Of a DNA stretch of 64,000 nucleotides, positions 10,739-41,936 are shown piece after piece. The notes under the pieces are model-generated. The model had not been told where the DNA came from. It made no database searches and worked only from the letters and a program-made list of their open reading frames with translations. Location of the stretch: NCBI RefSeq assembly GCF_900172275.1, contig NZ_FWFT01000005.1, positions 124,001 through 188,000 on the forward strand, read 5' to 3'. Each line of letters begins with the position of its first letter. Within the stretch, counting starts at the first letter, position 1. Source of the DNA: Pseudooctadecabacter jejudonensis. GTDB taxonomy: Bacteria > Pseudomonadota > Alphaproteobacteria > Rhodobacterales > Rhodobacteraceae. The translations under genes were made by a program, and so were the position numbers.

Positions 10739-10770
10739 GGCCCTGTGACTGATCGCAGGGCCCTTCCTTT
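10738..10770 (+). terminator. Rho-independent terminator of the ATPase transcript
   Basis: Stem GGGCCCTG/CAGGGCCC with a ten-base loop, followed by TTCCTTTT. It ends at the soeC stop codon, between convergent transcripts, and could act in both directions, though only the plus direction has a T-rich tail. Confidence 0.75.
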
Positions 10771-11666
10771 TAGCGTTTGCCGTAGTAGAGGCCCACGACA
10801 TGTTCGGCCTGTGCAAAAAACAGCCAGCGGGCCGCGAACACGCCGACAAGGTGGCTGATAACAGCAAGTGCCGCCAGAACATGGTCGGCGGTGCCAGACA
10901 CGCTGGCAAGTTGCGTCAAAGCCAGCAGCACAATCGGCGCCACGACCATCAATCCCATCGCCACGATGCGCAGTTTGGCCGCATGTTTGCGGCCAATGAC
11001 GTAGACGAATTCCTTCAGCAGATAATTCGTGCCGGTGTGGGGCGGCTCAAATGCGCGGACGGTGCCGCGATCACCCAAGCCGGTGGCGGTGCCCATATCG
11101 GTGCCGGAGGCTTCCAACGCTTTGTCGCCCACCACCCAGTGGGCCAGTTGCGCCAGTGCCGCAAGGATCAGCAACGGGATGGCCAGCGTCACCTGACCGG
11201 CCAGCAGCGCGCCACCGGCGATGCAAATGCTAAGAAACATCGCGGGTGTGGTTATATTGTGCCAGCGCGGTACGGTCTTGAACTGGGTATAGATCATCGC
11301 GGTGGTGAACACGGTCAACACCGACAACACGGCACCCACAACGCCCAGCACGGTCCAATGCGTGCCCAAAAAGATCGCGCCGATCGCATAAAGACCCATC
11401 ACCAGCAGTGCCACGACCGCACAGATGCCTTCACGGCTAAGCCAGCTGGACCGCCATTGTTTGAATGCCTTCAGCGCCCGTTCGGGACGGCCCAGGTGGA
11501 ACGTAGACGAGATCAGCCCGCCCACGGCCAGCGCATAGGCAATGAAAAACCAGATGAACGCGCCCATGCCGGTGGGTTGCAACACGCCCAGCCCTAGAAA
11601 AGCCAACAGGCCAAAGCCCAGGCCAGACAGGGTGGAAAAGAGGATAACGGAGGGTGCGGGATGCAT
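10770..11666 (-). CDS. soeC: SoeC-like membrane anchor of sulfite dehydrogenase (DmsC family)
   Basis: Integral membrane subunit of the DmsC/NrfD-type, 298 residues with about eight hydrophobic segments, starting MHPAPSVILFSTLSGLGFG. It would anchor the SoeAB dehydrogenase on the cytoplasmic face of the membrane and pass electrons to the quinone pool. Conserved-looking stretches are STFHLGRPERALKAF in a loop after the second segment and FGYVIGRKHA-like FVYVIGRKHAAKLR later. Its ATG overlaps the soeB stop as TAATG. The family call is firm. The SoeC identity is inferred from the cluster with xsc, pta, ackA and a sulfite-exporter type gene; DMSO reductase anchors look similar. Confidence 0.82.
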   Translation of the reverse strand: MHPAPSVILFSTLSGLGFGLLAFLGLGVLQPTGMGAFIWFFIAYALAVGGLISSTFHLGRPERALKAFKQWRSSWLSREGICAVVALLVMGLYAIGAIFLGTHWTVLGVVGAVLSVLTVFTTAMIYTQFKTVPRWHNITTPAMFLSICIAGGALLAGQVTLAIPLLILAALAQLAHWVVGDKALEASGTDMGTATGLGDRGTVRAFEPPHTGTNYLLKEFVYVIGRKHAAKLRIVAMGLMVVAPIVLLALTQLASVSGTADHVLAALAVISHLVGVFAARWLFFAQAEHVVGLYYGKR

Positions 11667-12436
11667 TAGGACTTACCTCCTGGCATTGTGGTGAGGGCTT
11701 TGTCGAGCCAGCCGAGGAACCCTGTGGGTTCTGCTGCGACGGGTTCAAGAAATGGGGCGAGGATGTCGACGTCTTCGCTGCGGTCGCGGTCTTTGGGACG
11801 CGGGGGCAGGTATTTGTTCACCGGCTTGGTGCCCATTTCAGGCATCAGATCCATTCCGCCACGTTCAGCGGTCAGTTTGCTGACGTTGCTGTCCGGGTCT
11901 GCGAAATCCCCGAAATGCCGCGCACCGGCGGGGCAGGTGCGCACGCAGGCGGGTTCGCGGTCTTCTTCGGGCAGGTTTTCGTTATAGATGCGGTCGACGC
12001 ACAAGGTGCATTTCTTCATCACCTTTTCGACTGCGTCCATTTCGCGGGCCCCATAGGGGCAAGCCCAGGCGCACAACCCGCACCCGATACAATCCGCCTC
12101 ATTCACCAGCACGATGCCATCTTCGACACGTTTGTAGCTGGCGCCCGTGGGGCAGACGGTGACGCAGGGCGCGTCTTCGCAGTGCAGGCAGGATTTGGGG
12201 AAGTGGATGAGTTGGGCGGGCGCGTCGTTCGCGGGCTGCACCTCATAGGAGTGTACACGGTTGAGGAACGTGCCTGAGGGGTTGGCGCCATAAGCGTCGG
12301 TGTCGGCCAGAGGTGCACCATAGTTTTCGGTGTTCCAGCCTTTGCAGGAGATCACGCACGCGTGGCAGCCGACACAGGTGTCGAGGTCGATCACTAGGCC
12401 GAGTTTGCGGTCAGTTGAAGTGGGCAATGTGGTCAT
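11666..12436 (-). CDS. soeB: SoeB-like iron-sulfur subunit of sulfite dehydrogenase
   Basis: Electron-transfer subunit with four 4Fe-4S clusters, 256 residues. All four cysteine groups are seen: CVGCHACVISC, CLHCEDAPCVTVC, CIGCGLCAWAC and the split fourth group KCTLCVDR with ACVRTCPAG. It carries electrons from the SoeA molybdenum site to the SoeC quinone site. There is no signal peptide, so the complex faces the cytoplasm. It starts MTTLPTSTDRKLGLVIDLD; the ATG overlaps the stop codon of the small membrane protein gene as ATGA, and no clear ribosome-binding site precedes it, which fits translational coupling. A 36-base repeat lies just upstream, within the preceding gene. Confidence 0.88.
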   Translation of the reverse strand: MTTLPTSTDRKLGLVIDLDTCVGCHACVISCKGWNTENYGAPLADTDAYGANPSGTFLNRVHSYEVQPANDAPAQLIHFPKSCLHCEDAPCVTVCPTGASYKRVEDGIVLVNEADCIGCGLCAWACPYGAREMDAVEKVMKKCTLCVDRIYNENLPEEDREPACVRTCPAGARHFGDFADPDSNVSKLTAERGGMDLMPEMGTKPVNKYLPPRPKDRDRSEDVDILAPFLEPVAAEPTGFLGWLDKALTTMPGGKS

Positions 12437-12663
12437 GAGACACCGTATGGTTTGTGTATGGCTGGCGTATGGCTCGCGTATGGCTGGGTGGCCATATGAC
12501 GGAGGGTGGCGTGCGGGGCAGACCGACCCTCCGGGGGGAGTTTTTCGGGCCAGATGAAGGTGATCGGTTCTTCTGCGTCGCGGTCCCATGTGGCCACAAA
12601 CCAGATGAAGGATCCGATCATCACCGCAAGGGCCGCAAAGATCAGGGCGAGGGTTTTATTCAT
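12433..12663 (-). CDS. Small single-pass membrane protein between soeA and soeB
   Basis: A 76-residue protein of unknown function. Residues 4-25 form one hydrophobic segment (LALIFAALAVMIGSFIWFV), followed by the acidic WDRDAEE. Residues 36-42 are encoded by a dispersed 22-base repeat and residues 61-72 by a 36-base repeat found again at 38355, so about the last 40 residues look like translated intergenic DNA. Both ends overlap neighbours by ATGA: the soeA stop and the soeB start. The gene is therefore coupled into the dehydrogenase operon. It may be a small accessory or assembly subunit; that is inference from position. The ancestral protein probably ended near residue 30. Confidence 0.7.
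   Translation of the reverse strand: MNKTLALIFAALAVMIGSFIWFVATWDRDAEEPITFIWPEKLPPEGRSAPHATLRHMATQPYASHTPAIHKPYGVS
12448..12483. repeat. 36-base repeat with 11-base period, copy 1
   Basis: GTATGG recurs four times at exactly 11-base steps, starting at 12445. A 36-base stretch here matches 38355-38390 at 34 of 36 positions. Both copies lie a short way upstream of a minus-strand start codon (soeB here, chorismate mutase there). Confidence 0.8.
12538..12559 (-). repeat. 22-base 3'-end repeat, copy B, inside a coding region
   Basis: Same element as at 907-928, 39890-39911 and 56843-56864, but here it is read through in the small membrane protein gene and encodes the residues around TFIWPEKL. The other copies sit 10-13 bases beyond stop codons. 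Confidence 0.75.
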
Positions 12664-15497
12664 TTGCCCACCTTCCATGTCAGGTCCTTTGGCCCTTTGG
12701 ACACGGGGGCGGCCTGCGGATCGAAGGCGGGCTGGGATTGCTGGCCTTTGGGTGCTGTCGTTTTTTCGATTTTGACACGCAGGTCGAACCAAGCGGCCTG
12801 ACCTGTGATCGGGTCGGAGTTGGACCAGCGCATACCGTCGTCCTGTTCGGGCAGAAGTTCATGGATCAGGTGGTTCAGCAGGAACCCTTTCGTGGTCTCA
12901 GGCGCGTCGTTGTCCAGCGCCCAGGCGCCTTTGCGCTTGCCGATGGCGTTCCATGTCCAGACGGTATTTTCATTGAGCGCGGCCATGTGGGCCACAGGCA
13001 CTGTAATGACACCTGTAGGAGAGGTGACTTTGGCCCAGTCGCCTTCGGCAAAGCCGTGCTCATCCCAGATTTTCGTGGGCACGTAGAGAGGATTCACACC
13101 GTGGATCTGCCGCAGCCAAGCGTTTTGCGTGCCCCAGCTGTGATACATTGCCATCGGACGTTGGGTCAGCGCGTGGACGTTATATTCGGACGTGTCTGTC
13201 CTCTCATCCGACAAGGGGGCGTACCAGATGGGCAGCGGGTCCATCGTGTCCTTGATGCGGGCGCGCAGATGATCTGGCGGTTGCACGCGCCCGACGCCTT
13301 CGGCGGCCAGCTGCATCCGGCGCAGGGGTTCGACGTAGGGCGTGAAGATATAGGGTTGGGGGCTGTCAAAGAACGACATCTCCACCGCCCAATCCTGATA
13401 GGCCATGTTGAACGGTTTGTAGTAGGCCGCCTCTTCGGGGACGTGGCTCATCCAGAAGCCGCCGTTTTTAATATAGGCGTCAAGCTGCGCTTCATTCGGC
13501 TGGCCGCGGCCTTCGGTCAGGCCGTTCTCGCCCATGCGCCAACCGGCCAGCGGGCCCACGCCAGGGCGGCGCATGTGGTTGGTGATGTAGTCGGCGTAGT
13601 CGTCGTATTTTTGGCTGCCGTCTTCGTTCACAAAGCCGGGCAGGCCAAGGCGGGCGCCCAGATCACACAGCACGGATTGGAAGCCGCGCACGTCGCGGTC
13701 AGGTTCCACCACGGGCCAGCGGATGGCGTCGGCCACGGCGTCGGCCTCACAGATCGGACGATCAAGGAGCGATATACAATCGTGACGTTCCAGGTAGGTG
13801 GTATCTGGCAGGATCAGGTCCGCAAAGGCCACCATTTCGGACGAATAGGCATCCGAATAAATGATGCGCGGGATGACGTATTCGCCGGTTTCATCATCCG
13901 TGTCGGTCAACATCTCCATCACCGCTTTGGTGTTCATGGAGGAGTTCCACGACATGTTGGCCATATACATGAACAAGGTGTCGATTTTGTAGGGATCGCC
14001 TGCGTGGGCGTTGGCGATGACCATGTGCATCATGCCGTGGGACGACAGGGGATTTTCCCACGTGAAGGCTTTGTCGATCCGCACGGCCGAGCCGTCGTCT
14101 TTGACCAACAGATCATCGGGCCCATGGGTGAAGCCCAAATGTGGGCCGTCCAGCGCCTCCCCAGGGGTGACTTTGCCATGGGGTTTGGGGTGGGCTGTTG
14201 CGGGCTTGGGGTAGGGCGGTTTGAACCGCATGCCGCCGGGTGTTTCTACGGCACCGAGGACGATTTGCAGCGTGTGCAGTGCGCGGCAGGTTTGGAAGCC
14301 GTTGGAATGCGCGGAAATCCCGCGCATGGCGTGCATGGAGACTGGGCGGCCCACCATTTTGTCGTGCTTTTTGCCGCGGAAATCTGTCCACGGGCGGTCC
14401 AGTTCGATGGCTTCGTCAAAGGCCACGCGCGCCATATCGGCGGCGAGACGTTTGATGCGGCTGGCTTCGATGCCGGTTTGCGCGGCGACGTTTTCCGGCG
14501 CGTATTTTACATCGAGGAACCGTTCAGCCATCAAGTGGAAGACGGGGCGGTGGGTGACGCCAGCGTGGCGGTGGGTGGCGCGCAGGTCAGGTTCCACGCC
14601 TTCACCGTTCCACGGGGCCAGATCCCCGGTGCGGCTGTCGATGACAAGCGGCTGGCCGTCACTGTCCCGCAGCAGCAGGCCTTGTTGATCGCTGGCGGGG
14701 TCTTCGTTGACCAGACACGACGCGTTGGTGAAGCGGGCAAGGTAGTCAAGGTCAAGCTTGCCGGCCTTAAACAGCTCATGGATCAGCGACATGATCAGAA
14801 GGCCGTCGGTGCCGGGCGTGATGCCGAACCAATCGTCGGCCACCGCGTTGTAGCCAGAGCGGATTGGGTTCACGCCCACAACACGAGCGCCGCGGGCTTT
14901 GATCTTGCCGATGCCCATTTTGATGGGGTTGCTGTCGTGGTCTTCGGCGACCCCGAACAACACGAACATCTTGGTGTGGTCCCAATCGGGCTGTCCGAAT
15001 TCCCAGAACGCGCCGCCCATGGTGTAGATGCCAGCGGCGGCCATGTTCACGGAACAAAAGCCCCCGTGGGCTGCGTAGTTGGGCGTGCCGAAGCCCTGCG
15101 CCCAAAGCGACGTAAAGGATTGCGACTGGTCGCGGCCCGTGAAGAACGCCAGCTTTTCGGGGTGCTTTTCGCGGACGGGCTTTAGCCAGTCAGTGGCGAT
15201 TGTGAGGGCCTCTTCCCAAGAGATCTCTTCGAACTCACCCGATCCGCGAGGGCCGACACGTTTCAAAGGTGCCTTCAGGCGCGAGGGCGCGTTGACCTGC
15301 ATGATGCCCGCGCTGCCTTTGGCGCAAAGGACGCCCTGGTTCACGGGGTGGTCCTTGTTGCCCTCGATGTAGGCGACTTTGCCGTCTTTCATGTGGACGT
15401 TGATGCCGCAGCGGCAGGCGCACATGTAGCAGGTCGTTTTGCGGACCTCGTCCGAGACCTTGGGCGATGTGTCGAGGATCGGTTGATCTTTGGGCAT
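12660..15497 (-). CDS. soeA: SoeA-like molybdopterin catalytic subunit of sulfite dehydrogenase
   Basis: Molybdopterin-guanine-dinucleotide oxidoreductase of the DMSO reductase superfamily, 945 residues, expected to oxidise sulfite to sulfate in the cytoplasm. The N-terminal 4Fe-4S site is CYMCACRCG with a later Cys in NQGVLCAKG. A candidate molybdenum ligand is the Cys of HGGFCSVNMA. The last ~150 residues form the dinucleotide-binding domain (RPMAMYHSWGTQNAW, GDWAKVTSPTG). No twin-arginine signal is present, unlike periplasmic relatives. An AAAGGA lies before the chosen ATG. It sits between the TSUP permease gene and the small membrane protein. Formate dehydrogenase or thiosulfate/polysulfide reductase are look-alikes; the xsc-pta-ackA context favours SoeA. 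Confidence 0.85.
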   Translation of the reverse strand: MPKDQPILDTSPKVSDEVRKTTCYMCACRCGINVHMKDGKVAYIEGNKDHPVNQGVLCAKGSAGIMQVNAPSRLKAPLKRVGPRGSGEFEEISWEEALTIATDWLKPVREKHPEKLAFFTGRDQSQSFTSLWAQGFGTPNYAAHGGFCSVNMAAAGIYTMGGAFWEFGQPDWDHTKMFVLFGVAEDHDSNPIKMGIGKIKARGARVVGVNPIRSGYNAVADDWFGITPGTDGLLIMSLIHELFKAGKLDLDYLARFTNASCLVNEDPASDQQGLLLRDSDGQPLVIDSRTGDLAPWNGEGVEPDLRATHRHAGVTHRPVFHLMAERFLDVKYAPENVAAQTGIEASRIKRLAADMARVAFDEAIELDRPWTDFRGKKHDKMVGRPVSMHAMRGISAHSNGFQTCRALHTLQIVLGAVETPGGMRFKPPYPKPATAHPKPHGKVTPGEALDGPHLGFTHGPDDLLVKDDGSAVRIDKAFTWENPLSSHGMMHMVIANAHAGDPYKIDTLFMYMANMSWNSSMNTKAVMEMLTDTDDETGEYVIPRIIYSDAYSSEMVAFADLILPDTTYLERHDCISLLDRPICEADAVADAIRWPVVEPDRDVRGFQSVLCDLGARLGLPGFVNEDGSQKYDDYADYITNHMRRPGVGPLAGWRMGENGLTEGRGQPNEAQLDAYIKNGGFWMSHVPEEAAYYKPFNMAYQDWAVEMSFFDSPQPYIFTPYVEPLRRMQLAAEGVGRVQPPDHLRARIKDTMDPLPIWYAPLSDERTDTSEYNVHALTQRPMAMYHSWGTQNAWLRQIHGVNPLYVPTKIWDEHGFAEGDWAKVTSPTGVITVPVAHMAALNENTVWTWNAIGKRKGAWALDNDAPETTKGFLLNHLIHELLPEQDDGMRWSNSDPITGQAAWFDLRVKIEKTTAPKGQQSQPAFDPQAAPVSKGPKDLTWKVGK

Positions 15498-15513
15498 GTC
15501 GTGTCCTTTCAGG

Positions 15514-16275
15514 TCAGGCGGCAAGGGTTCTGATCAGGCCGAGCAGGGCAAGGCCGATCAGCAGAAACAGGCAAAAAGGTTTGTAGTAGGGTTGCAGGCG
15601 TGGCGTGAAGAATTTTGTGCCAAGCCAGACGCCAAGAAGTGTCGGCGGAATAAGCGCCAGCCCCCGAAGGGCCGCGGTGCCGTCCATGGTGCCAAAGCCC
15701 AGCTGGATAAACAGGGAAAAGACGCCGGAGGCAAAGAGGTAAAGCACGAGTGTGCCGCGCATTGAGGCGGCGGCCGTGCCCAGTGACAACACATAAAGGG
15801 CGATCACCATGCCGCCCACATGGGCAAGGCCCGCCGCGATGCCCGCGACGATGCCCGCGACGACCGTGCCGCCGGGTGTGCGCAGGCCGGGAAACTGCAC
15901 CTTGAGAAGTTGCAGGACGGCCAGTGCCACGATCAACGCCAGCGCCACGATACGGGACGTCTCGACGGGCAATGACATCGTCAGCATCAGCCCCAACGGC
16001 CAACCGATGGTCGATCCGATGACCAGCAGCAGGGCGATGCGCCGGTCGGCATCGCGGATGCCTGCGCGGGCCATCAACAGGCTGGCGGACATTTCCAGAA
16101 ACCACAGAATGGGGATCAGCACGATGGGCGCAATGAAGGTCGCGGCGGAGGCCATCACCAGCGCCGACAGCGCAAAGCCTGAAAACCCACGCACGAGGCC
16201 CGCGACGAAGGTGATCGCCAGAAGGGCTAGAAATTCGCCAGCGGTGAATGCGGTAAGCGACAGCAGCCATTCCAT
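15514..16275 (-). CDS. TSUP (TauE/SafE) family permease, putative sulfite exporter
   Basis: Membrane protein of the sulfite/organosulfonate exporter family, 253 residues with about seven to eight membrane segments, two TSUP-type repeats (LLAITFVAGLVRGFSGF near the N-terminus and VAGIVAGIAAGLAHVGG in the middle). In taurine-degrading Paracoccus and relatives a protein of this type, TauZ, is proposed to export sulfite made by Xsc; here it is encoded between ackA and soeA, giving the cell both export and oxidation of sulfite. The ATG overlaps the ackA stop codon as TGATG; a GTG one codon upstream is an alternative. Transport of sulfite itself is inferred from position. Confidence 0.85.
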   Translation of the reverse strand: MEWLLSLTAFTAGEFLALLAITFVAGLVRGFSGFALSALVMASAATFIAPIVLIPILWFLEMSASLLMARAGIRDADRRIALLLVIGSTIGWPLGLMLTMSLPVETSRIVALALIVALAVLQLLKVQFPGLRTPGGTVVAGIVAGIAAGLAHVGGMVIALYVLSLGTAAASMRGTLVLYLFASGVFSLFIQLGFGTMDGTAALRGLALIPPTLLGVWLGTKFFTPRLQPYYKPFCLFLLIGLALLGLIRTLAA

Positions 16276-17348
16276 CACACCGCCCCAAGGGTCAGCGCAT
16301 CAAGGGCGATCTGACGTTCTTCTTGCGCTTTGACCACGTGCACAGGCACATCGCCAAGGAAGGCCAGATGGGCCATAATCCGGTCGCGGATCTTAGCGGA
16401 GTTTTCGCCGATGCCACCGGTGAAGGCCACGGCATCGAGGCCGCCCATGGCGACCACCGCTGATCCCGCGTGCCGTGCGGCCCAGTAGCAGAAATGATCA
16501 ACGGCGAAGTTGGCCTTGTCCGTATCGGCGGCCAGCAACAGGCGCATGTCGTTGGCCCCGCCCAATCCCTTGAGGCCGCTGTCTTTGTTCAGCCGCCGCG
16601 CGGCCTCATCCGGCCCGTGGATTTCGGCCATCCGCAGCACGGCCATGCCGTCAATCGCGCCGGACCGCGTGCCCATGGTCAGCCCGTCCAGGGGGGAATA
16701 GCCCATGGAGGTCGCAACAGACCGGCCGTTCTTGATCGCACAGAGCGACGCGCCAGACCCAAGGTGCAGCGCCAGCAGCCGTTTGGGTAGATCTGCGCCG
16801 AATTGCGTCACGATCCACGCATAGCTGAGGCCGTGGAACCCATAGCGTCGGATGCCCATCGCGCGGTCTTCGGCTGGGATTGCGTAGGTTGTGGCGACGT
16901 CGGGGTTGGTGGCGTGAAAGGCTGTCCCGAAGGATGCGTATTGCGCAAGGTCCGGGGCCAGCGATTGCAGCGCGCGAATGGCTGCAAGGTTGTTGGGGTT
17001 GTGCAGCGGGGCAAGCGGCGTTGCGGCCTCGATGCCCGCGATGACGTCATCGGTGACGCGGCAGGGTGCGACAAGCGTGGTGCCGCCGTGGACCACGCGG
17101 TGGGCGGCTGCTGTCAGGTTGGACAGGGCGACGCCTTGCGCGGCAAGGCTGGACAGGATCGCGGCTAGGGCCGTGTCGTGGTCAGGGGCGGCGATGTCTT
17201 TGTCATCGGTCCCAAGGTCCAGATGCGCCAACGGGCCGCCAATGCCGCTGACCTGACCGGCCAGGTGTTGGGTCAACGCGCCGTCTGGCCCTGTCTGGAA
17301 CAAGGCCACCTTGATCGATGAGGATCCGGCGTTGACGACAAGGATCAT
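16275..17348 (-). CDS. ackA: Acetate kinase
   Basis: Acetate kinase of the ASKHA fold, 357 residues, slightly shorter than the usual ~400. It interconverts acetyl phosphate and acetate with ADP/ATP. Seen: the start MILVVNAGSSSIKVALF, HRVVHGG with a conserved His-Arg pair, GTAFHATNP, RRYGFHGLSY, LHLGSGASLCAI, SMGYSPLDGLTMGTRSG and FTGGIGENSAKIR. Three bases separate it from pta. In this operon it can turn acetyl phosphate made by Xsc into acetate with ATP gain, as an alternative to the Pta route to acetyl-CoA. Many xsc operons have pta only, so the adjacent ackA is a notable addition. Confidence 0.95.
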   Translation of the reverse strand: MILVVNAGSSSIKVALFQTGPDGALTQHLAGQVSGIGGPLAHLDLGTDDKDIAAPDHDTALAAILSSLAAQGVALSNLTAAAHRVVHGGTTLVAPCRVTDDVIAGIEAATPLAPLHNPNNLAAIRALQSLAPDLAQYASFGTAFHATNPDVATTYAIPAEDRAMGIRRYGFHGLSYAWIVTQFGADLPKRLLALHLGSGASLCAIKNGRSVATSMGYSPLDGLTMGTRSGAIDGMAVLRMAEIHGPDEAARRLNKDSGLKGLGGANDMRLLLAADTDKANFAVDHFCYWAARHAGSAVVAMGGLDAVAFTGGIGENSAKIRDRIMAHLAFLGDVPVHVVKAQEERQIALDALTLGAV

Positions 17349-21891: not shown

Positions 21892-23868
21892 TTACTGCTG
21901 TTGTGCCACCATCCGTGCGAAGGCGCGACTGTCCACCGCCAAGTTGGCCTGCGCGAAGGGCGATTTGTCGTCGTCGGGGTTAAAGAACGTGCTGTCCACG
22001 GCGATGATTTTCCATGCGCCATCAACATTCAGCAAGAATGGTGATCCGCTGTCGCCCTGCGCTGTGTCGCATTCGTGCAGGATCGAATTGTCATCAAACG
22101 CCTCAACCACGCGACAGCCGACGTTGCCTGACAGGTTGTCGCCGGTGTCCCAGCTGTAGCCCGCCTGATTGACGATCAGACCAGACCGCCCAATCTGGCT
22201 GAGGTCAGCGGAGGTGAGTTCATGGACATCCAGATAGCCGACTTCATTCCCCAACGGGCGATCCAGTGTGACCAGCGCCCAGTCGTGGCCATTGCCGCCG
22301 CCAGCGGGCTGTGCGTCGGGGGTATAGTTGGGGTCAAACACCGCGCCTGTCACGCGAGCCTCCCCCATGGATTGGCCGACCGAAAGACCGGCGGTAAAGC
22401 TTACAGGGGTGAGGGTTTCCTCGCCCGTATCCGTGACGCAGTGGGCCGCCGTCAAAACCAGCGAAGGGCCCACAAGGGTGCCCGTGCACCCGCCGTCCTG
22501 CAGTTCCAGCGATCCGATAGCGGCCCATGGCATTTGTGTCGCATCGACCAGCAGGCGGTCATCGCGGCCAAAGAAGTGGTTTTCAAGGCCTGCAGGACGG
22601 GACCGGCCCAGACAATCGGCTGTGTCGCTGAACGCTTCACACGTGCCGTCTCCGCCCGAGGCCTCATTGCAGATGCCATCGAACGCGGTGTTGCAGGTAT
22701 CGGTGCGGTTGCGCAGATAGGCCACGGCGGCGCAATCGGTCACGTCCGTGCCTGAGGTGCAATTGTCCGTGCCGATGCCCGGTTCGTCACATTCGCCATC
22801 GTTGGCCCAGCGGCAACTGTCTTCGCCACCCAGAGCCAGCGCGCGGCAGTCCGTGGCGTCGGTGCCCGGGGTGCAATAGACGGTGCCCCCGAAAGTGGCA
22901 TCGTCGCATTCTCCGTCATTGCTATATTGGCAGCTGTCGTCGCCCAACTGGCCGCGTAGATCGGCAGGAACCAACGCCAGCAGACGTTCAAGGGCCGCAG
23001 GGGAATCGCCATAAAGGTTGCAATCCGTCGCGTCTGAGCCGTCGACGCAAGCGCCGCCGCCGCCGTAGCGCAGCTCGTCACATTCGCCGTCATTGGCAAA
23101 GGCGCAGCTGTCGTCCGCAATCCCCGCGGCCAGAAGGGCGCAGTCGGTCGCGTCGGTGCCATCGGCACAATAACCACCGCCCCCGTAGCGCGCTTCGTCG
23201 CATTCGTTGTCGCCGGACCATTCGCAGCTGTCGTCCCCGGCGGCTACGGCTGGCGCGGCTGTCGGCGCACCGCAATCGGTGGTGTCCGTGCCATCTGCGC
23301 AGAACCCTTGACCGCCGTAGCGGGCCTCATCGCAGGCGCCGTCGTTTGCGAACACGCAACTGTCCGCCTCATCCATAGGGGGCAGATCAGCCGTGGTTTG
23401 CACGTTGATCAGACAGTCCATCGCATCGGTGCCTGCATCGCACAGGCCAGACCCGCCAAAGGCTGCGTCATCGCATTCGCCATCGTTTGACCAGCGGCAG
23501 GTGTTGTCGCCCAGATTTCCAATAGACGTCGTATCAAGGCCCAGCGCATTGGCGCGCATCAGAAAATCGGCTTCCCGTTGCACAATCCAGTCGGCGCAAT
23601 CGGCGGTGTCTGAGCCATCAAGACAGGACCCCGTCCCGCCATGGCGGTATTCATCGCATTGGCCGTCAAAGGCAAACGAACAGCTGTTGTCGGCGATGCC
23701 TTTGGCCACAAGAACGCAATCATTTCCGTCGGTGTTGGGTTCGCAATAGCCCTGTCCGCCAAATCGAGCCTCATCGCATTCATTGTCATTGGCATAATCG
23801 CACGAGTTTTGCGCCGCAGCGGGTAGGGCGAGGATCAAACACAGCAGGGCAAGGGCAGAACGAAGCAT
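21892..23868 (-). CDS. Secreted trypsin-like serine protease with nine four-cysteine repeats
   Basis: A 658-residue exported protein. A signal peptide (residues 1-20, cleavage after AAAQ) is followed by nine repeats of about 31 residues, starting near 21, 61, 122, 169, 213, 253, 311, 350 and 390. Most keep C-x7-C-x10-C-x8-C, with words like DGECDE, RYGGGG and DGTDATDC. A chymotrypsin-fold domain follows from about 445, with His476 (TAAHC), Asp529 (GHDWAL) and Ser607 (GDSGSP) in place. The acidic, cysteine-rich repeats recall calcium-binding LDL-A or Lin12/Notch modules but have four cysteines, so I do not assign them. Monocistronic between tauR and tpa; no evident link to taurine. Confidence 0.88.
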   Translation of the reverse strand: MLRSALALLCLILALPAAAQNSCDYANDNECDEARFGGQGYCEPNTDGNDCVLVAKGIADNSCSFAFDGQCDEYRHGGTGSCLDGSDTADCADWIVQREADFLMRANALGLDTTSIGNLGDNTCRWSNDGECDDAAFGGSGLCDAGTDAMDCLINVQTTADLPPMDEADSCVFANDGACDEARYGGQGFCADGTDTTDCGAPTAAPAVAAGDDSCEWSGDNECDEARYGGGGYCADGTDATDCALLAAGIADDSCAFANDGECDELRYGGGGACVDGSDATDCNLYGDSPAALERLLALVPADLRGQLGDDSCQYSNDGECDDATFGGTVYCTPGTDATDCRALALGGEDSCRWANDGECDEPGIGTDNCTSGTDVTDCAAVAYLRNRTDTCNTAFDGICNEASGGDGTCEAFSDTADCLGRSRPAGLENHFFGRDDRLLVDATQMPWAAIGSLELQDGGCTGTLVGPSLVLTAAHCVTDTGEETLTPVSFTAGLSVGQSMGEARVTGAVFDPNYTPDAQPAGGGNGHDWALVTLDRPLGNEVGYLDVHELTSADLSQIGRSGLIVNQAGYSWDTGDNLSGNVGCRVVEAFDDNSILHECDTAQGDSGSPFLLNVDGAWKIIAVDSTFFNPDDDKSPFAQANLAVDSRAFARMVAQQQ

Positions 23869-35406: not shown

Positions 35407-36227
35407 TCCGTCAGCGGGCCTTTACGCTGGTGGCGCTCCCATAGATCTGGGCGACGTTCGCGGGTGATTGCCTCACTCATCTCGCGACGCCACCGCGCCA
35501 CTTTGCCATGATCACCCGAGGTCAGGACATCAGGAATTGTGTGGCCTTCCCACTCGGCGGGGCGGGTGTATTGGGGGTGTTCCAGCAAGCCGTTGGAATG
35601 GCTTTCTTCCACAGCACTTTCGGCATTGCCCAACACACCGGGCAGCAGCCGGACGCAGGCGTCAATCAGCGTCATGGCGGGCAATTCTCCCCCTGTAAGA
35701 ACGTAGTCCCCCATCGACACCTCCATGATCTGGTGATGATCCAAAACCCGTTGATCAACGCCCTCGAACCGACCGCACAGCAACGTCACACCGTCTTGCT
35801 GGCTCAGGTCTTGGGCGATTTTCTGGGTGAAGGGCACGCCGCGCGGGCTGAGGTACAACAGCGGCATCCGCCCGCGCGCGCGACGGCGCGCATCGCCCAA
35901 GGCGTTCGCCACCACGTCGGCACGCAGAACCATACCCGCGCCGCCACCTGACGGTGTGTCATCCACATTGCGGTGTTTGCCCACGCCGAACCGGCGCAAA
36001 TCAGTCGTTTGCAATTGCCAAAGCCCGTCTTTCAGCGCACGGCCCGTCAGGCTTTCCCCCAACAAACCAGGAAACGCATCGGGGAACAGCGTGATCACTT
36101 GCGCCGTCCACGCTTTGGCAAGGCTGGGCTTGTCGGTCATCAGCTCTTGCGGTTTCGCGCTGAGCTGGATGGATTTTCGACCGATGGACTTGCCGAGAGG
36201 GGCCGGTTTATCTGGGGTGTCCGTCAT
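35403..36227 (-). CDS. trmD: tRNA (guanine37-N1)-methyltransferase
   Basis: TrmD, which methylates G37 next to the anticodon with SAM and prevents frameshifting. It has 274 residues, about 30 more than usual because of an N-terminal extension before AQVITLFPDAFPG; a Met at residue 30 is an alternative start, but the upstream ATG overlaps the previous stop as ATGA. Seen: GVGKHRNVDDTPSGGGAGMVLR, LYLSPRGVPF, LLCGRFEGVDQRV, SMGDYVLTGGELPAM with the trefoil-knot SAM loop, and ESHSNGLLEHPQYTRP. It ends the chorismate mutase-rpsP-rimM-sulfotransferase-trmD run. Confidence 0.95.
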   Translation of the reverse strand: MTDTPDKPAPLGKSIGRKSIQLSAKPQELMTDKPSLAKAWTAQVITLFPDAFPGLLGESLTGRALKDGLWQLQTTDLRRFGVGKHRNVDDTPSGGGAGMVLRADVVANALGDARRRARGRMPLLYLSPRGVPFTQKIAQDLSQQDGVTLLCGRFEGVDQRVLDHHQIMEVSMGDYVLTGGELPAMTLIDACVRLLPGVLGNAESAVEESHSNGLLEHPQYTRPAEWEGHTIPDVLTSGDHGKVARWRREMSEAITRERRPDLWERHQRKGPLTD

Positions 36228-37018
36228 GGGGTTTTGTCTTCCTCAAGCAGGTTTGCCTTGGCCGTTTGCGCCGCGCGATCCGAAATGGCCGACCGATTGA
36301 TCGCCAAAAGTTCATCCACCAAGGCTTCGGGCGGACCTGCGTTCATGTGGTCCTTCAGGGTCAGCCTGCCCCGCAAATGTCTGGGCAAGTTAAGAAGGTC
36401 GATCAAAGGCGCGGCCAGCCCTTCTGGCCCGTCCAACCCGTCGATGTCGCGGATTTGAACGCGGCCCTTGACCGCGCCTGCGATATCCTGGGCCACAGAT
36501 TTCAGGTCCGACGCGGCACCAAACAACGCGCGGTAATCGTCGAAGTCCAGCACAACGCGGCTGTGAAAAAGGTTGTGACGAAAGGTTGAGCGCAGCCAGC
36601 TTTCGGGGCCGCGCGTCGAGAGATGAAAATTGACCTCAGCGTCGTTGCCAAAGACCATGTGAATGACATCTTCGGCCGCAGCCATCAGGGCGGGGGCCGC
36701 GCCGTAGCCTTGTTGTCCGTCGCGTCCCGGCATCCGGCCCAGCAGATTTTCGTCTGAGATCAGGACTTTGCGAGATGTGCCCACATCAAGGGCCGACAGC
36801 GTGCGGTGCAGTTCGTCCCGAAAACCGGTCAACAGGTCCGCCGTGCCAAACCGCGAATACCGCACAGCCATTCGCGCAGCACCACCGCGGGTCCGGCCTG
36901 GCAAAACAAGGGCACTGCGTGGCCAGATGTGTTTGCCGTTTTCGCGCAGATAGGTTTGGACGGTGGTGGTTCCGGTTTTGTGAAACCCGGGGTGGACGAT
37001 GATACGGCGGGGCGCCAT
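36224..37018 (-). CDS. Sulfotransferase-fold protein between rimM and trmD
   Basis: A 264-residue protein with the PAPS-binding P-loop of sulfotransferases at the very start (HPGFHKTGTTTVQTYL) and a possible 3'-phosphate site near LSTRGPESWLRSTF. The acceptor is unknown. It is fused into the ribosomal operon: its ATG overlaps the rimM stop codon as TGATG and its stop overlaps trmD as ATGA. That places it in a slot that is normally empty. It might be a recent insertion that gained translation coupling, or have a role with tRNA or ribosomes; neither can be told from sequence. Confidence 0.75.
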   Translation of the reverse strand: MAPRRIIVHPGFHKTGTTTVQTYLRENGKHIWPRSALVLPGRTRGGAARMAVRYSRFGTADLLTGFRDELHRTLSALDVGTSRKVLISDENLLGRMPGRDGQQGYGAAPALMAAAEDVIHMVFGNDAEVNFHLSTRGPESWLRSTFRHNLFHSRVVLDFDDYRALFGAASDLKSVAQDIAGAVKGRVQIRDIDGLDGPEGLAAPLIDLLNLPRHLRGRLTLKDHMNAGPPEALVDELLAINRSAISDRAAQTAKANLLEEDKTP

Positions 37019-38354: not shown

Positions 38355-38390
38355 TGGTTTGCGTATGGCTGGCGTATGGCACGCGTATGG
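38355..38390. repeat. 36-base repeat with 11-base period, copy 2
   Basis: GTATGG recurs at 38363, 38374 and 38385. It matches 12448-12483 at 34 of 36 positions and lies just upstream of the chorismate mutase start. Confidence 0.8.
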
Positions 38391-38404: not shown

Positions 38405-38959
38405 TCAGGCGGCCCCTTTCACGTGGCGGTAGACGTGGACGTCTTCTTCGTCAGGGTCATAGAACAACGAGTCTGGCCCATTCAGGGCGTCGGTTGCCGC
38501 TTGGTCAAAGGTTGCGCCCAAGGCGCGGGCGACGTGAGCGGACGGGAGGTTGGAGGCGTCGATGTAGGAGACGAACGTGGTGAAGCCCGTTACGTCCCAC
38601 GCCCAGGGCATGATCGTGCGCAGGGCTTCGGTGACGTAGCCTTTGCCTTCGTGATTCGCGGACCACAGGGTCCAGCCGAATTCGGGTTCGGGCCAGATCA
38701 TCGGGTGCCAGCAGCCCAATGAGCCGACGGGTGTGCCATCCTTCAGGCAGGCCACAAACGAGCCATAGCCGCGCAGCACCCATTGGCCTGCCAGACTTCC
38801 CCACATGCGGTTCGCGTCCTTGATGGTGAACGGGCCGCCGATGAAATCGGTGCGGTCAGAGAGCGCAAATTTTGAGAAGGCCGCGAAATCATCAGCGCGG
38901 GGTGCGCGCAGCGTCAGACGATCCGTCTGAAGGGTTGGGATGGTGTAGGTCTGGGTCAT
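38405..38959 (-). CDS. GNAT N-acetyltransferase, RimJ/RimL type
   Basis: A 184-residue acetyl-CoA-dependent acetyltransferase. Seen: TDRLTLRAPRADDFAAF at the start, PVGSLGCWHP, and the acetyl-CoA loop region EGKGYVTEALRTIMPWA followed by SYIDASNLPSAHVARALGA, typical of the RimJ/RimL branch. The substrate, a protein N-terminus or small molecule, is unknown. Its ATG overlaps the stop of the YeeE-type gene upstream as ATGA. The chorismate mutase gene follows after 70 bases. Confidence 0.88.
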   Translation of the reverse strand: MTQTYTIPTLQTDRLTLRAPRADDFAAFSKFALSDRTDFIGGPFTIKDANRMWGSLAGQWVLRGYGSFVACLKDGTPVGSLGCWHPMIWPEPEFGWTLWSANHEGKGYVTEALRTIMPWAWDVTGFTTFVSYIDASNLPSAHVARALGATFDQAATDALNGPDSLFYDPDEEDVHVYRHVKGAA

Positions 38960-39384
38960 GGTGTTGCTGCCTTTGCGGGCAGGGCAAGCAGGCGGTTGCC
39001 CAACATGCCTGCGGCCATCGCGCCAAAGAACAACAGTGCGTCACCGCCGCCGTAACCAAGGACGGCCATGGCGGGACCAGGGCACAGGCCCACAATGGCC
39101 CAACCGGTGCCAAACAGGGCCGAGCCTGCGATCAAACGGCGGTCAATGACGGGTTCGGACGGGGTGGGGATTGCGGTGCCAAGCACGGCCTTTTCAAGGC
39201 GCGCAGCAATCCGCCATGCCAGCAGCATGGGCAGAATGGCGCCGCCCAGCACGAAGGCCAGCGTCGGATCCCAGTTGCCGAACAGGTCCAGCCATCCTTG
39301 CACCTTTGCGGTGTCGGTCATGCCCGACACGGTGAGGACCGCGCCAAACAAGGCGCCAGCAAGAAGGGCGAACAGACCCCGCAT
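38956..39384 (-). CDS. YeeE/YedE family permease half, second gene
   Basis: A 142-residue membrane protein of the YeeE/YedE (DUF395) family, with four hydrophobic segments. Seen: FGAVLTVSGMTDTAKVQGWLDLFG and FGTGWAIVGLCPGPAMAVLG, where the conserved Cys is thought to handle sulfur. In YeeE from Spirochaeta one chain carries both halves and takes up thiosulfate; here the second half is a separate gene, overlapping the first as TGATG. Uptake of thiosulfate or another sulfur compound is likely but unproven. Confidence 0.85.
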   Translation of the reverse strand: MRGLFALLAGALFGAVLTVSGMTDTAKVQGWLDLFGNWDPTLAFVLGGAILPMLLAWRIAARLEKAVLGTAIPTPSEPVIDRRLIAGSALFGTGWAIVGLCPGPAMAVLGYGGGDALLFFGAMAAGMLGNRLLALPAKAATP

Positions 39385-39806
39385 CAAAACACCCCCAATA
39401 GATGGCGTCCGACGAACATGGCCGCAAAGCCCGCGACAAGATAGGCGACGGTGGCGGTGATCCCGCGGGCCGAGAACCGAGATATGCCGCAGACGCCGTG
39501 GCCGGAGGTGCAGCCATTTGCCATACGGGTGCCCAAGCCCACCAAGAGGCCGGCAACACCAAGAAGCGCAGGGTTGGAGGTGAGATTTGTAGCCGGATAG
39601 CCGAATGCGAAACCGTAAAGAAGCGGAGCCGCGATCAGGCCCGCGATGAACAACGCCTTTTCCCACGTGGGGCCGGTGGCGTCGACGATGCTGCCGAGAA
39701 TGCCGGACGCGCCCATGATGCGGCCATTCACCAGCAGATAGAGCGCGGCTGCGCTGCCGATCATCAGACCTCCGATGAGGCCGAATATCCAGTCCGTCGG
39801 GATCAT
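39384..39806 (-). CDS. YeeE/YedE family permease half, first gene
   Basis: A 140-residue membrane protein, partner of the next gene. It has about four hydrophobic segments and the hallmark GTRMANGCTSGHGVCGISR, whose Cys residues form the sulfur relay in characterised YeeE proteins. The two genes together equal one full YeeE, a split also known as PmpA/PmpB-like pairs. It fits a cell with active sulfur chemistry (see the taurine and sulfite genes), although it lies 14 kb away within the translation operon region. Confidence 0.87.
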   Translation of the reverse strand: MIPTDWIFGLIGGLMIGSAAALYLLVNGRIMGASGILGSIVDATGPTWEKALFIAGLIAAPLLYGFAFGYPATNLTSNPALLGVAGLLVGLGTRMANGCTSGHGVCGISRFSARGITATVAYLVAGFAAMFVGRHLLGVF

Positions 39807-39831
39807 GTGTCTGCGCCTGCGGCGGGCGGGC

Positions 39832-39911
39832 CCAAAAATTCACAGAATTTTTGGGTGCAAAATCTTTGAAAGATTTTGGCCTCCGGCGGGAGTTTATTGG
39901 GACAGATGAAG
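39832..39911. repeat. Composite element: two AT-rich hairpins plus 22-base repeat copy C
   Basis: Stem CCAAAAATTC/GAATTTTTGG (39832-39854), stem CAAAATCTTT/AAAGATTTTG (39858-39878), then the 22-base repeat (39890-39911), whose minus-strand start CTTCATCTG comes 10 bases after the NIPSNAP gene stop. The most complete copy in the window. Confidence 0.78.
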
Positions 39912-39921
39912 AGGACGCGCA

Positions 39922-40254
39922 TTACAGGCCGAGCTCCTCAACCGAGGCGCCGGTCAGGACGGGGCGGGTGAAGGAGCGATCAAAGCGGCGAATGCATTTG
40001 GTGGCTTGCGCGTGCGCGTAGGCGCGGCGGCAGGCGGGGTCTTGATCCATGCGGGTGCGGTAGTCTTCATAGGCCGCCAACGACGGGAATGAAAAATGGC
40101 AGTAGGCGATATCGTTCGGGCCTTCGTGAGGGAGGTGATAGCCGTGATGTGTCCCGCCGAGTTTGTCGACAAGATGGATCCACGCTTTGGCGTAGACCTC
40201 GAACGCGTCCAGTTGATCTGGATCGATCTCATATCGCAGGGTGCATGTGATCAT
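39922..40254 (-). CDS. NIPSNAP-family protein
   Basis: A 110-residue single NIPSNAP domain, a ferredoxin-like dimeric fold of unknown enzymatic role. Seen: ITCTLRYEIDPDQLDAFEVYAKAW, HHGYHLPHEGPNDIAYCHFSF and AAYEDYRTRMDQDP. Its ATG overlaps the ffh stop as ATGA, so it is translated with the signal-recognition GTPase; a functional link is not known. The stop codon is followed by a composite repeat element. Confidence 0.85.
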   Translation of the reverse strand: MITCTLRYEIDPDQLDAFEVYAKAWIHLVDKLGGTHHGYHLPHEGPNDIAYCHFSFPSLAAYEDYRTRMDQDPACRRAYAHAQATKCIRRFDRSFTRPVLTGASVEELGL

Positions 40255-41753
40255 TTCTTTTTTCCGAACCCCGAAAGACCAGGGGGAAGGGCGGCACCGC
40301 CGCCGAGGCCTGGCAGCCCCCCCATTCCGCCGGGAAGCTGCGCGCCCATTTTCTTGGCGGCCTCTTCCATGGCTGCGGGGTCGTTCATGTCGGGCATGCC
40401 GCCTTTGCTGAACATGCCTTTCATGGCCTGTTTCAGCATGCCGCCTTTGCCCATTTTGCCCATCTTTTTCATCATGTCGGACATTTGCCGGTGCATTTTG
40501 ATCAGCTGGTTAAGTTCGCGGACCTCAAGCCCTGCGCCTGCGGCGATGCGTTTTTTGCGGCTGGCTTGCAAAAGCTGGGGGTTGGCGCGTTCTTTTTTGG
40601 TCATGGAGTTGATCAGCGCGATCTGACGTTTGAGGACGCTGTCGTCAAACCCTGCTTCTTCGACCTGTTTCGACATTTTCTTCATGCCAGGCATCATGCC
40701 CATCATGCCTTCCATGCCGCCCATCTTGAGCATCTGGTCCAGCTGCATTTTCATGTCGTTCATGTTGAAACGGCCCTTCTGGAAGCGCTTCATCATCTTT
40801 TCGGCCTGTTCGGCCTCGATTGTTTCCTGGGCTTTTTCGACGAGAGAGACGATGTCGCCCATGCCGAGGATGCGGCCCGCGACGCGGTCGGCGTGGAATT
40901 CCTCAATCGCGTCCATCTTTTCGCCCAAGCCCACAAAGCGGATGGGGCGGCCTGTAACGGCGCGCATGGACAGGGCTGCACCGCCGCGGCCGTCACCGTC
41001 CATTCGGGTGAGGACCACGCCGGTGATGCCGATGCGGTCGTCGAAGTTTTCCGCGGTGTGCACGGCGTCCTGACCTGTCAGGCCGTCGACCACTAGCATG
41101 GTTTCGCGGGGGTTGGCGACGTCGCGCACAGCCTCAACCTGTTGCATCAGTTCTTCGTCGATGCTGAGGCGGCCGGCGGTGTCGAGCATGTAGACATCGT
41201 AGCCGCCAAGGTTTGCTTGCGTTTTGGCGCGTTTTGCGATTGCGACGGGATCTTCGCCCTTGACGATGGGCAGGGTGTCGACGCCGATTTGCACGCCAAG
41301 GATCTGCAGCTGTTCCATCGCGGCGGGGCGGTTCACGTCCAGCGACGCCATCAGAACCTTTTTGCCGTCCCGTTCTTTCAGACGTTTGGCCAGTTTGGCT
41401 GTTGTCGTGGTTTTACCGGAGCCCTGCAGGCCGACCATCAGGATGGGGGCAGGTGGGTTGTCGATTTTCAGGGTGCCGGCGTCATCGTCGCCCTTGAGGA
41501 CATGCACCAGTTCGTCGTGCACGATTTTGACGACCTGCTGGCCGGGGGTCACGGATTTGGTGACGGATTGGCCGGTGGCCTTTTCCTGCACGGCTTTGAC
41601 AAAATCGCGGGCCACGGGGAGGGAGACGTCTGCCTCAAGCAGGGCGACGCGGACCTCACGCAGGGCGGTTTTGACGTCATCCTCAGACAGCGCACCTTGT
41701 TTGGTGAGGCGGTCGAAGACGCCGCCGAGGCGTTCTGACAGGTTCTCAAACAT
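40251..41753 (-). CDS. ffh: Signal recognition particle protein Ffh
   Basis: SRP54-type GTPase, 500 residues, which binds signal sequences of nascent membrane proteins together with 4.5S RNA and delivers them to FtsY. Order: helical N domain, G domain with G1 GLQGSGKTTTTAKLA, DVNRPAAMEQL, DTAGRL, TRMDGDGRGGAAL and GLGEK, then a Met-rich M domain (MKMQLDQMLKMGGMEGMMGM) with RRKRIAAGAG-like SRKKRIAAGAGLEVRELN for RNA binding. First gene of the superoperon that runs on to rpsP and trmD. The 4.5S RNA gene is not seen here. Confidence 0.97.
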   Translation of the reverse strand: MFENLSERLGGVFDRLTKQGALSEDDVKTALREVRVALLEADVSLPVARDFVKAVQEKATGQSVTKSVTPGQQVVKIVHDELVHVLKGDDDAGTLKIDNPPAPILMVGLQGSGKTTTTAKLAKRLKERDGKKVLMASLDVNRPAAMEQLQILGVQIGVDTLPIVKGEDPVAIAKRAKTQANLGGYDVYMLDTAGRLSIDEELMQQVEAVRDVANPRETMLVVDGLTGQDAVHTAENFDDRIGITGVVLTRMDGDGRGGAALSMRAVTGRPIRFVGLGEKMDAIEEFHADRVAGRILGMGDIVSLVEKAQETIEAEQAEKMMKRFQKGRFNMNDMKMQLDQMLKMGGMEGMMGMMPGMKKMSKQVEEAGFDDSVLKRQIALINSMTKKERANPQLLQASRKKRIAAGAGLEVRELNQLIKMHRQMSDMMKKMGKMGKGGMLKQAMKGMFSKGGMPDMNDPAAMEEAAKKMGAQLPGGMGGLPGLGGGAALPPGLSGFGKKK

Positions 41754-41833: not shown

Positions 41834-41936
41834 TGGTCGAAGGGCACGACCAAACAAGTTTGGCCCCCGTGGGCGCAACGCGCTGACGGGGGGCGATCCT
41901 TGGGTGGTCAAGGACCGGACGGCTGGTGCTGTCCGG
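41834..41936. other. Cluster of five stem-loops upstream of ffh
   Basis: Within the 199-base gap are TGGTCG/CGACCA (41834-41852), CCAAAC/GTTTGG (41850-41863), CCCCCGT/ACGGGGG (41864-41892), TCCTTG/CAAGGA (41897-41914) and CCGGAC/GTCCGG (41915-41936). They may be a terminator group for the upstream membrane-protein gene or a structured ffh leader. No known RNA family is recognised. Confidence 0.5.

Follow-up and report, generated by a model that had tools for sequence, protein, structure and literature searches.

Rickettsia palindromic elements are dispersed repeats that become part of protein reading frames. Another described class, the MIRUs of mycobacteria, comprises short repeats scattered through the genome, with an ORF coupled at -4 to the gene that follows, and passages of a 2025 review (PMC12548453) state that their insertion probably does little harm to the expression of that gene. 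According to excerpts from two other papers, overlaps of -4 and -1 are enriched between subunit genes of one complex, and coupling falls steeply within tens of nucleotides (PMC6728339, PMC10666635).

The window analyzed here, a stretch of 64,000 nucleotides from Pseudooctadecabacter jejudonensis, contains soeA, soeB and soeC in the order known for SoeABC, with an adjoining TauE/SafE gene (Table 1). The soe gene names are taken over from the original prediction, and their domain basis is Pfam. Unlike the known SoeABC, for which passages of a Sulfitobacter survey (PMC11034169) name three soeABC genes, the window carries a fourth small gene. SoeX is the name coined in this analysis for the single-helix protein encoded between soeA and soeB. 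The 76-codon ORF is present where it had been predicted, coupled to soeA and to soeB by ATGA. A search of the open-licence literature turned up no account of SoeX or of ORFs bridging soeA and soeB, and the terms "small ORF" and "insert" are absent from the main text of PMC10666635. What appears to be new, judged from the sequences, is that translational coupling persists despite inserted DNA, in an arrangement centered on a new small-protein family.

The MIRU seems to be the closest precedent, through a likeness in working and not through membership by element sequence. A dispersed repeat of the window, repeat B, lies directly before the ATGA of soeB; it also lies inside a 52-codon ORF of the same genome (L286:14723-14881, contig C5) that bridges a DUF4169 gene and an RHH_4 gene with -4 overlaps at both ends. 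However, the MIRU of the review passages is one repeat family at start codons, whereas the soe junction holds many unrelated sequences, repeats, whole genes and gene-less DNA, and the window repeats, unlike a MIRU, extend a conserved protein. As in termination-reinitiation chains, stop and start codons overlap at the soe junction (ATGA twice in the window, and 100/111 of the expanded junctions surveyed below), but at this junction an intermediate ORF carries the overlap over the inserted DNA. From Rickettsia palindromic elements the soe case differs in that the repeats occupy the loose tail of a gene at a coupled junction, and in that the three cases examined in this genome all retain their overlap with the following gene.

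Table 1. Positions of the soe genes, of the parts of soeX and of the junction signals within the window.
Feature	Position	Strand	Basis or remark
soeX	12433..12663	(-)	76 codons; start and stop each within an ATGA overlap; homologues in relatives
SoeX conserved core, residues 1-36	12556..12663	(-)	alignments, dN/dS, predicted helix; motif GSFIWFVATWDxxxEEP
Variable tail, residues 37-76 and stop	12433..12555	(-)	interpreted as bridge to soeB
Repeat A (CTTCATCTGGCCCG...CCGGAGGG)	12527..12559	(-)	stop-free in all three sense frames
Repeat B, 11-nt period CCATACGCxxx	12448..12483	(-)	stop-free in all three sense frames
ATGA, soeA stop / soeX start	12660..12663	(-)	sequence
ATGA, soeX stop / soeB start	12433..12436	(-)	sequence
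SD-like GGAAGGTGGG in soeA 3' end, preceding soeX start	12667..12676	(-)	sequence; function inferred
soeA, molybdopterin subunit	12660..15524	(-)	Pfam; coordinates are those of the longest ORF
soeB, 4Fe-4S subunit	11666..12436	(-)	Pfam
soeC, DmsC-type membrane anchor	10770..11666	(-)	Pfam
TauE/SafE-type sulfite exporter gene, upstream of soeA	15514..16278	(-)	Pfam

The most hydrophobic 19-residue stretch of SoeX covers residues 5-23 (Kyte-Doolittle 2.56). AlphaFold predicts a single helix at residues 2-25 of the window protein with pLDDT 92-98 for residues 1-30, and the mean pLDDT is 52-59 across residues 41-76. The original prediction placed a membrane helix and a short acidic end in residues 1-30; the single helix is borne out, but the conserved part extends to about residue 36 and takes in the whole motif of Table 1. 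On average the charge is positive before the helix and negative after it, which suggests an N-in, C-out topology. The dN/dS ratio (Nei-Gojobori), calculated from pooled pairs that are not independent, is 0.06-0.24 for the core (residues 2-36) in six groups and 0.27-1.06 for the tails. The core is under purifying selection and the tails are looser. Residues S18, F19 and W26 are near-invariant in the alignments, and this favors a role of SoeX as a protein. The hydrophobic stretch is found in 116/116 SoeX sequences (36 + 80, some genomes being shared by both sets) and in 0/43 of the peptides of at least 19 aa encoded by the bridge ORFs described below. SoeX is probably an accessory subunit or an assembly factor of SoeABC.

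Homologues of SoeX occur in many Roseobacteraceae, typically with 46-54 aa, mostly coupled at both ends and often without repeats. The first search gave matches in 14/148 other family genomes. Twelve of the 14 lie between soeA and soeB; the remaining two start at residues 17 and 35, with no soeA or soeB at either locus. A scan of contigs gave 120 relatives, the best 80 of which were retained as a named set (median length 50 aa for these best 80 of 120), with Octadecabacter, Pseudooctadecabacter, Loktanella, Yoonia, Marivita, Roseovarius, Nereida, Thalassobacter, Shimia ponticola, Roseibaca and others. One record labeled gammaproteobacterial (L201) is probably misbinned; its sequence differs at one residue from that of Roseovarius sp. 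217 (L203). At loci with SoeX and both neighbors, SoeX is always between soeA and soeB. Relatives without a helix at this position would have spoken against the original prediction: the helix is conserved where SoeX is found, but a 13-row profile matched SoeX in only 38/394 family genomes, and soeB is present in 286/394. Most soeB-bearing family genomes are therefore without any match to this profile, which indicates that soeX is dispensable. Its distribution on the tree is patchy (8 changes in 13 rows).

No convincing counterpart of SoeX was found in Pfam, in NCBIfam or among PDB sequences: the window protein had nothing up to E 1 in Pfam and NCBIfam, and other members had scattered weak matches, the best at E 0.009. 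In a search of plasmid records, the best ten of 70 rows were at E 3-9 and from unrelated genera. The class-wide search matched 4/289 genomes, namely the present genome, a relative from the same family (G294) and two with marginal matches (E 7e-4 and 8e-4), which lie within open frames of 289-316 aa and are taken as chance.

The C-terminal half of SoeX does hold two dispersed repeats, and as proposed these now encode protein. Repeat A starts at nt 105 of the ORF and codes for FIWPEKLPPEG; repeat B starts at nt 181 and is a 36-mer coding for residues 61-72, 94% identical to window positions 38355-38390. The 231-bp soeX query finds at least 40 places in the same genome, itself included (40 of the 120 candidates were scored). 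Repeat A was expected shortly after stop codons. Its window form has 14 copies in 400 kb of this genome, 13 of them intergenic; seven copies lie 0, 7, 7, 7, 12, 27 and 57 nt past a same-strand stop, but six are farther away or have no such stop. Rfam at the gathering threshold gave no match on repeat A or B. The second window copy of repeat B (38355-38390) lies just outside the ORF at 38405-38959 (-), on its low side; this ORF has a 4-nt overlap, at its start, with the one at 38956-39843. Elsewhere on contig C5 of this genome, the tail of a sirohaem-synthase-like gene (Pfam TP_methylase and CysG_dimeriser; L295:9893-11164) is encoded by repeat B, and the gene overlaps the next one (DUF2849) as TGATG, a second repeat-B protein tail with the coupling kept.

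To compare the junction in relatives, 151 soeA-soeB junctions were measured from the 286 soeB-bearing genomes, chosen for a SoeX match or the best soeB score and not at random. The set is 153 loci minus L081, where neither soeA nor soeB turned up, and L129, which lies at a contig end and gave no soeA. The junction is direct in 40/151, 34 of these at -4. The 111 expanded junctions comprise 37 with SoeX, 22 with long inserts (364-1179 nt) and 52 with short inserts (9-184 nt) without a recognized gene; L047, L055, L060 and L059 are placed in the SoeX class on matches to the 13-row profile, L059 by the profile match alone. When one walks from the soeA stop by ORFs overlapping 4, 1 or 8 nt until the soeB start, this relay reaches soeB in 100/111 expanded junctions, against about 19 expected from shuffles with free phase. 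By class, 48/52 short, 33/37 SoeX and 19/22 long inserts are relayed, as are 75/80 loci of the named set; 11/111 and 5/80, respectively, are not relayed under this rule.

Of the short inserts, 46/52 are in the single phase ending on the soeB ATGA, and 42/52 are strict -4/-4 bridges where 8.2 are expected (P 1e-28 if the inserts are independent). Seven of the remaining ten end on or beside soeB at another small spacing, one ends 15 nt short and two have no bridge. On the tree, the short-insert label takes 28 changes for 39 rows, as in shuffled labels (28.0), so that many inserts look independent; the tree covers 84/151 junctions, the shorter loci having too little soeB, and its bootstrap had not converged. 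Where short DNA precedes SoeX (L021, L043, L054, L057, L060, L079), it is again an ORF overlapping the SoeX gene by 4 nt, and short DNA before another long ORF (L062, L101, L173) likewise overlaps that gene by 4 nt. The soeA stop contains a start codon in 101/111 expanded junctions, and an SD-like match of at least 4 nt precedes this start point in 109/151 junctions; translation of any sequence beyond it is therefore likely.

Most of the 22 long inserts have an ordinary-looking gene in the relay frame. For instance, the gene in L181 is DUF6882 (Pfam), and others we take, by reading, to be of LysE type and alpha/beta-hydrolases. Six have no recognized gene in the relay frame (L107, L160, L140, L150, L114, L116), and this frame stays open over 123-301 codons and overlaps soeA and soeB by 4 nt each. 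The relay peptides of L107 and L160 are related; the +1 frame is a DUF6882 gene in L107 and looks alike in L160. In L140 and L150, from two genera, the relay frame is antisense to a secreted-looking gene (VPLPAS near the C-terminus) that has no Pfam match. Over this antisense gene the sense strand has no stop for 296 and 301 codons, and the two peptides share 35% identity across 233 residues. GC-rich genes commonly leave their in-register antisense frame open; these two cases are therefore weaker, and the long relay frames without a recognized gene are taken as support only. No bridge spans two further long inserts, L159 and L171.

The repeat-rich tail of SoeX is best read as a bridge, in which inserted sequence would be tolerated if it is open and in phase, keeping termination-reinitiation coupling. 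We hold it probable, for the explanation as a whole, that soeX is a two-part gene composed of a conserved core and a translational bridge to soeB. Ribosomes finishing soeA would restart on soeX at the first ATGA, read through the repeats, terminate in the soeB ATGA and restart on soeB, and SoeX would be made in step with SoeA and SoeB. Repeats A and B may have survived since none of their sense frames contains a stop and since the ORF that carries them still terminates precisely at the soeB ATGA. The hand-over of ribosomes, selection for balanced subunits as the driver and an action of SoeX on SoeABC are what we infer from this arrangement. Repeat B (CCATACGGTGTCTC) directly precedes soeB in the window and offers GGTG as its best SD; six Octadecabacter relatives with repeat-free forms of SoeX have an AGGGG or CAGGGG stretch there. 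Reinitiation drops steeply with distance in assays described in parts of PMC10666635, and the window soeB presumably depends on ribosomes finishing soeX. Nevertheless, an SD-like match of at least 4 nt precedes soeB in 103/151 junctions, and soeB need not rely on coupling everywhere.

How the tail arose can be viewed in several ways. The original prediction was that a gene for a helix of about 30 residues lost its stop near codon 30, absorbed an intergenic region by read-through and was thereby coupled to soeB. Comparison of the junction in relatives gave the conserved helix with variable, partly repeat-built tails that this proposal anticipated, and no 76-residue SoeX was seen in species without the repeats among the relatives compared. 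The coupling, however, is already present in the short forms. The six Octadecabacter relatives without repeat tails (L187-L190, L232, L233) have a 46-aa SoeX with 4-nt coupling at both ends, and -4/-4 ORFs make up 61/80 named and 24/36 family loci; forms as short as about 30 aa are absent from both sets, the minimum being 44 aa in the named set (best 80 of 120) and 46 aa in the family set. We regard stop loss as very improbable. Since short forms are already coupled at both ends, a short coupled gene is the likely earlier state, and the repeats would have entered or replaced the loose tail in phase. Other members of the group have, by eye on the DNA, repeat-B-like tails (L183, L194, L199), repeat-A-like tails (L184, L186) or both (L182), which makes the tail a place of repeat gain and loss. 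In the repeat-A tails of six Loktanella/Yoonia-type loci, pS is 0.055-0.17 versus 0.30-0.48 in the core; it is likewise low in the 10-codon tails of the repeat-free Octadecabacter forms (0.147 versus 0.508), and Marivita and Roseovarius tails have no such deficit. The low pS may reflect constraint near the soeB start rather than on repeat A. Alternatively, elements could transpose into ATGA sites and duplicate them, the double overlap being an unselected by-product. This would fit the ATGA-type overlap at both ends of most inserts, the recurrence of repeat pieces among them (14 similar pairs in a self-comparison) and the MIRUs, described in passages of the review as inserting at start codons (PMC12548453). 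Yet the inserts vary greatly in length and sequence and are mostly in one phase, and a search for direct repeats flanking them gave identity over at most the first 8 nt, with none past the first 4-8 nt, which makes this mechanism quite unlikely as an explanation of the overlaps.

What is selected in the bridge is a separate question. Bridge ORFs might protect untranslated RNA from Rho-dependent termination, with the hand-over to soeB incidental, as could be argued from the SD-like matches before soeB and from long bridges spanning DNA with genes on the opposite strand or in a different frame. Such protection would be available in more than a single frame, yet 46/52 short inserts use the phase that ends on the soeB ATGA; protection from Rho is in our judgment unlikely as the main cause. 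Of similarly low probability is that SoeX acts as a nascent anchor, its helix bringing the translating soe mRNA to the membrane beside SoeC and the finished protein having no role. The position of soeX between two non-membrane subunit genes and the single helix with its positive N-terminus and acidic end agree with it, but the three near-invariant residues and the purifying selection suggest a residue-specific role. The bridge reading could also be carried further. Coupled operon junctions may be gene nurseries, where entering DNA persists only as a translated bridge ORF (peptides of 10-300 residues, from repeats, unrelated sequence, even the antisense of genes); SoeX would be a bridge that gained a membrane-complex function, and its repeat tail a fresh round. 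We offer this as a speculation that is unlikely but worth stating.

The soe junction provides a natural experiment, many times repeated within one bacterial family, on the strength of selection for translational coupling of two subunit genes. In addition, the operon of a sulfite-oxidizing enzyme of marine bacteria gains a further member, a conserved membrane protein so far without a name. For the annotation of small proteins the junction calls for caution, as short junction ORFs may be translated and selected without a function of the peptide.

Bridging is a general but modest tendency, of which the soe junction is an extreme case. At the soeB-soeC control junction, the gap is at most 3 nt in 88/92. 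Computed gaps of 15-250 nt between aroA and cmk, a pair unrelated to soe (n=33), have no clear phase preference, with 14/33 in the bridging phase. Among the 20/33 inspected, five are -4/-4 bridges of 10-30 codons from five genera (L267, L276, L277, L280, L282), six have frames running into cmk, the start of which is then uncertain, eight lack a start at the stop, and one is a TTGA non-bridge. In 800 kb of two genomes, 13/65 gaps with a start at -4 are bridged where 4.9 are expected, two of them sharing the same peptide; with ATG only, bridging is 5/11 at -4, 0/8 at -1 and 11/111 elsewhere (-4 versus elsewhere P 0.006). The pair hemolysin-lnt was set aside as a comparison because lnt N-termini align poorly. 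A 264-aa ORF before trmD (36224-37018) was dropped as a bridge, as its start GFHKTGTT reads sulfotransferase-like; Pfam gave no match. A 35-codon -4/-4 ORF lies near 279783 on contig C5 of this genome, between two genes that are presumably those for cysteinyl-tRNA synthetase and citramalate synthase.

Two other features were observed in the window. Degenerate direct repeats at 22771-23812, with spacings of 117-174 nt and more, probably belong to a repeat protein on the (-) strand. The sole Rfam match in the window is an ffh sRNA (RF01793) at 41856-41907 (-), upstream of a 501-aa ORF at 40251-41753.
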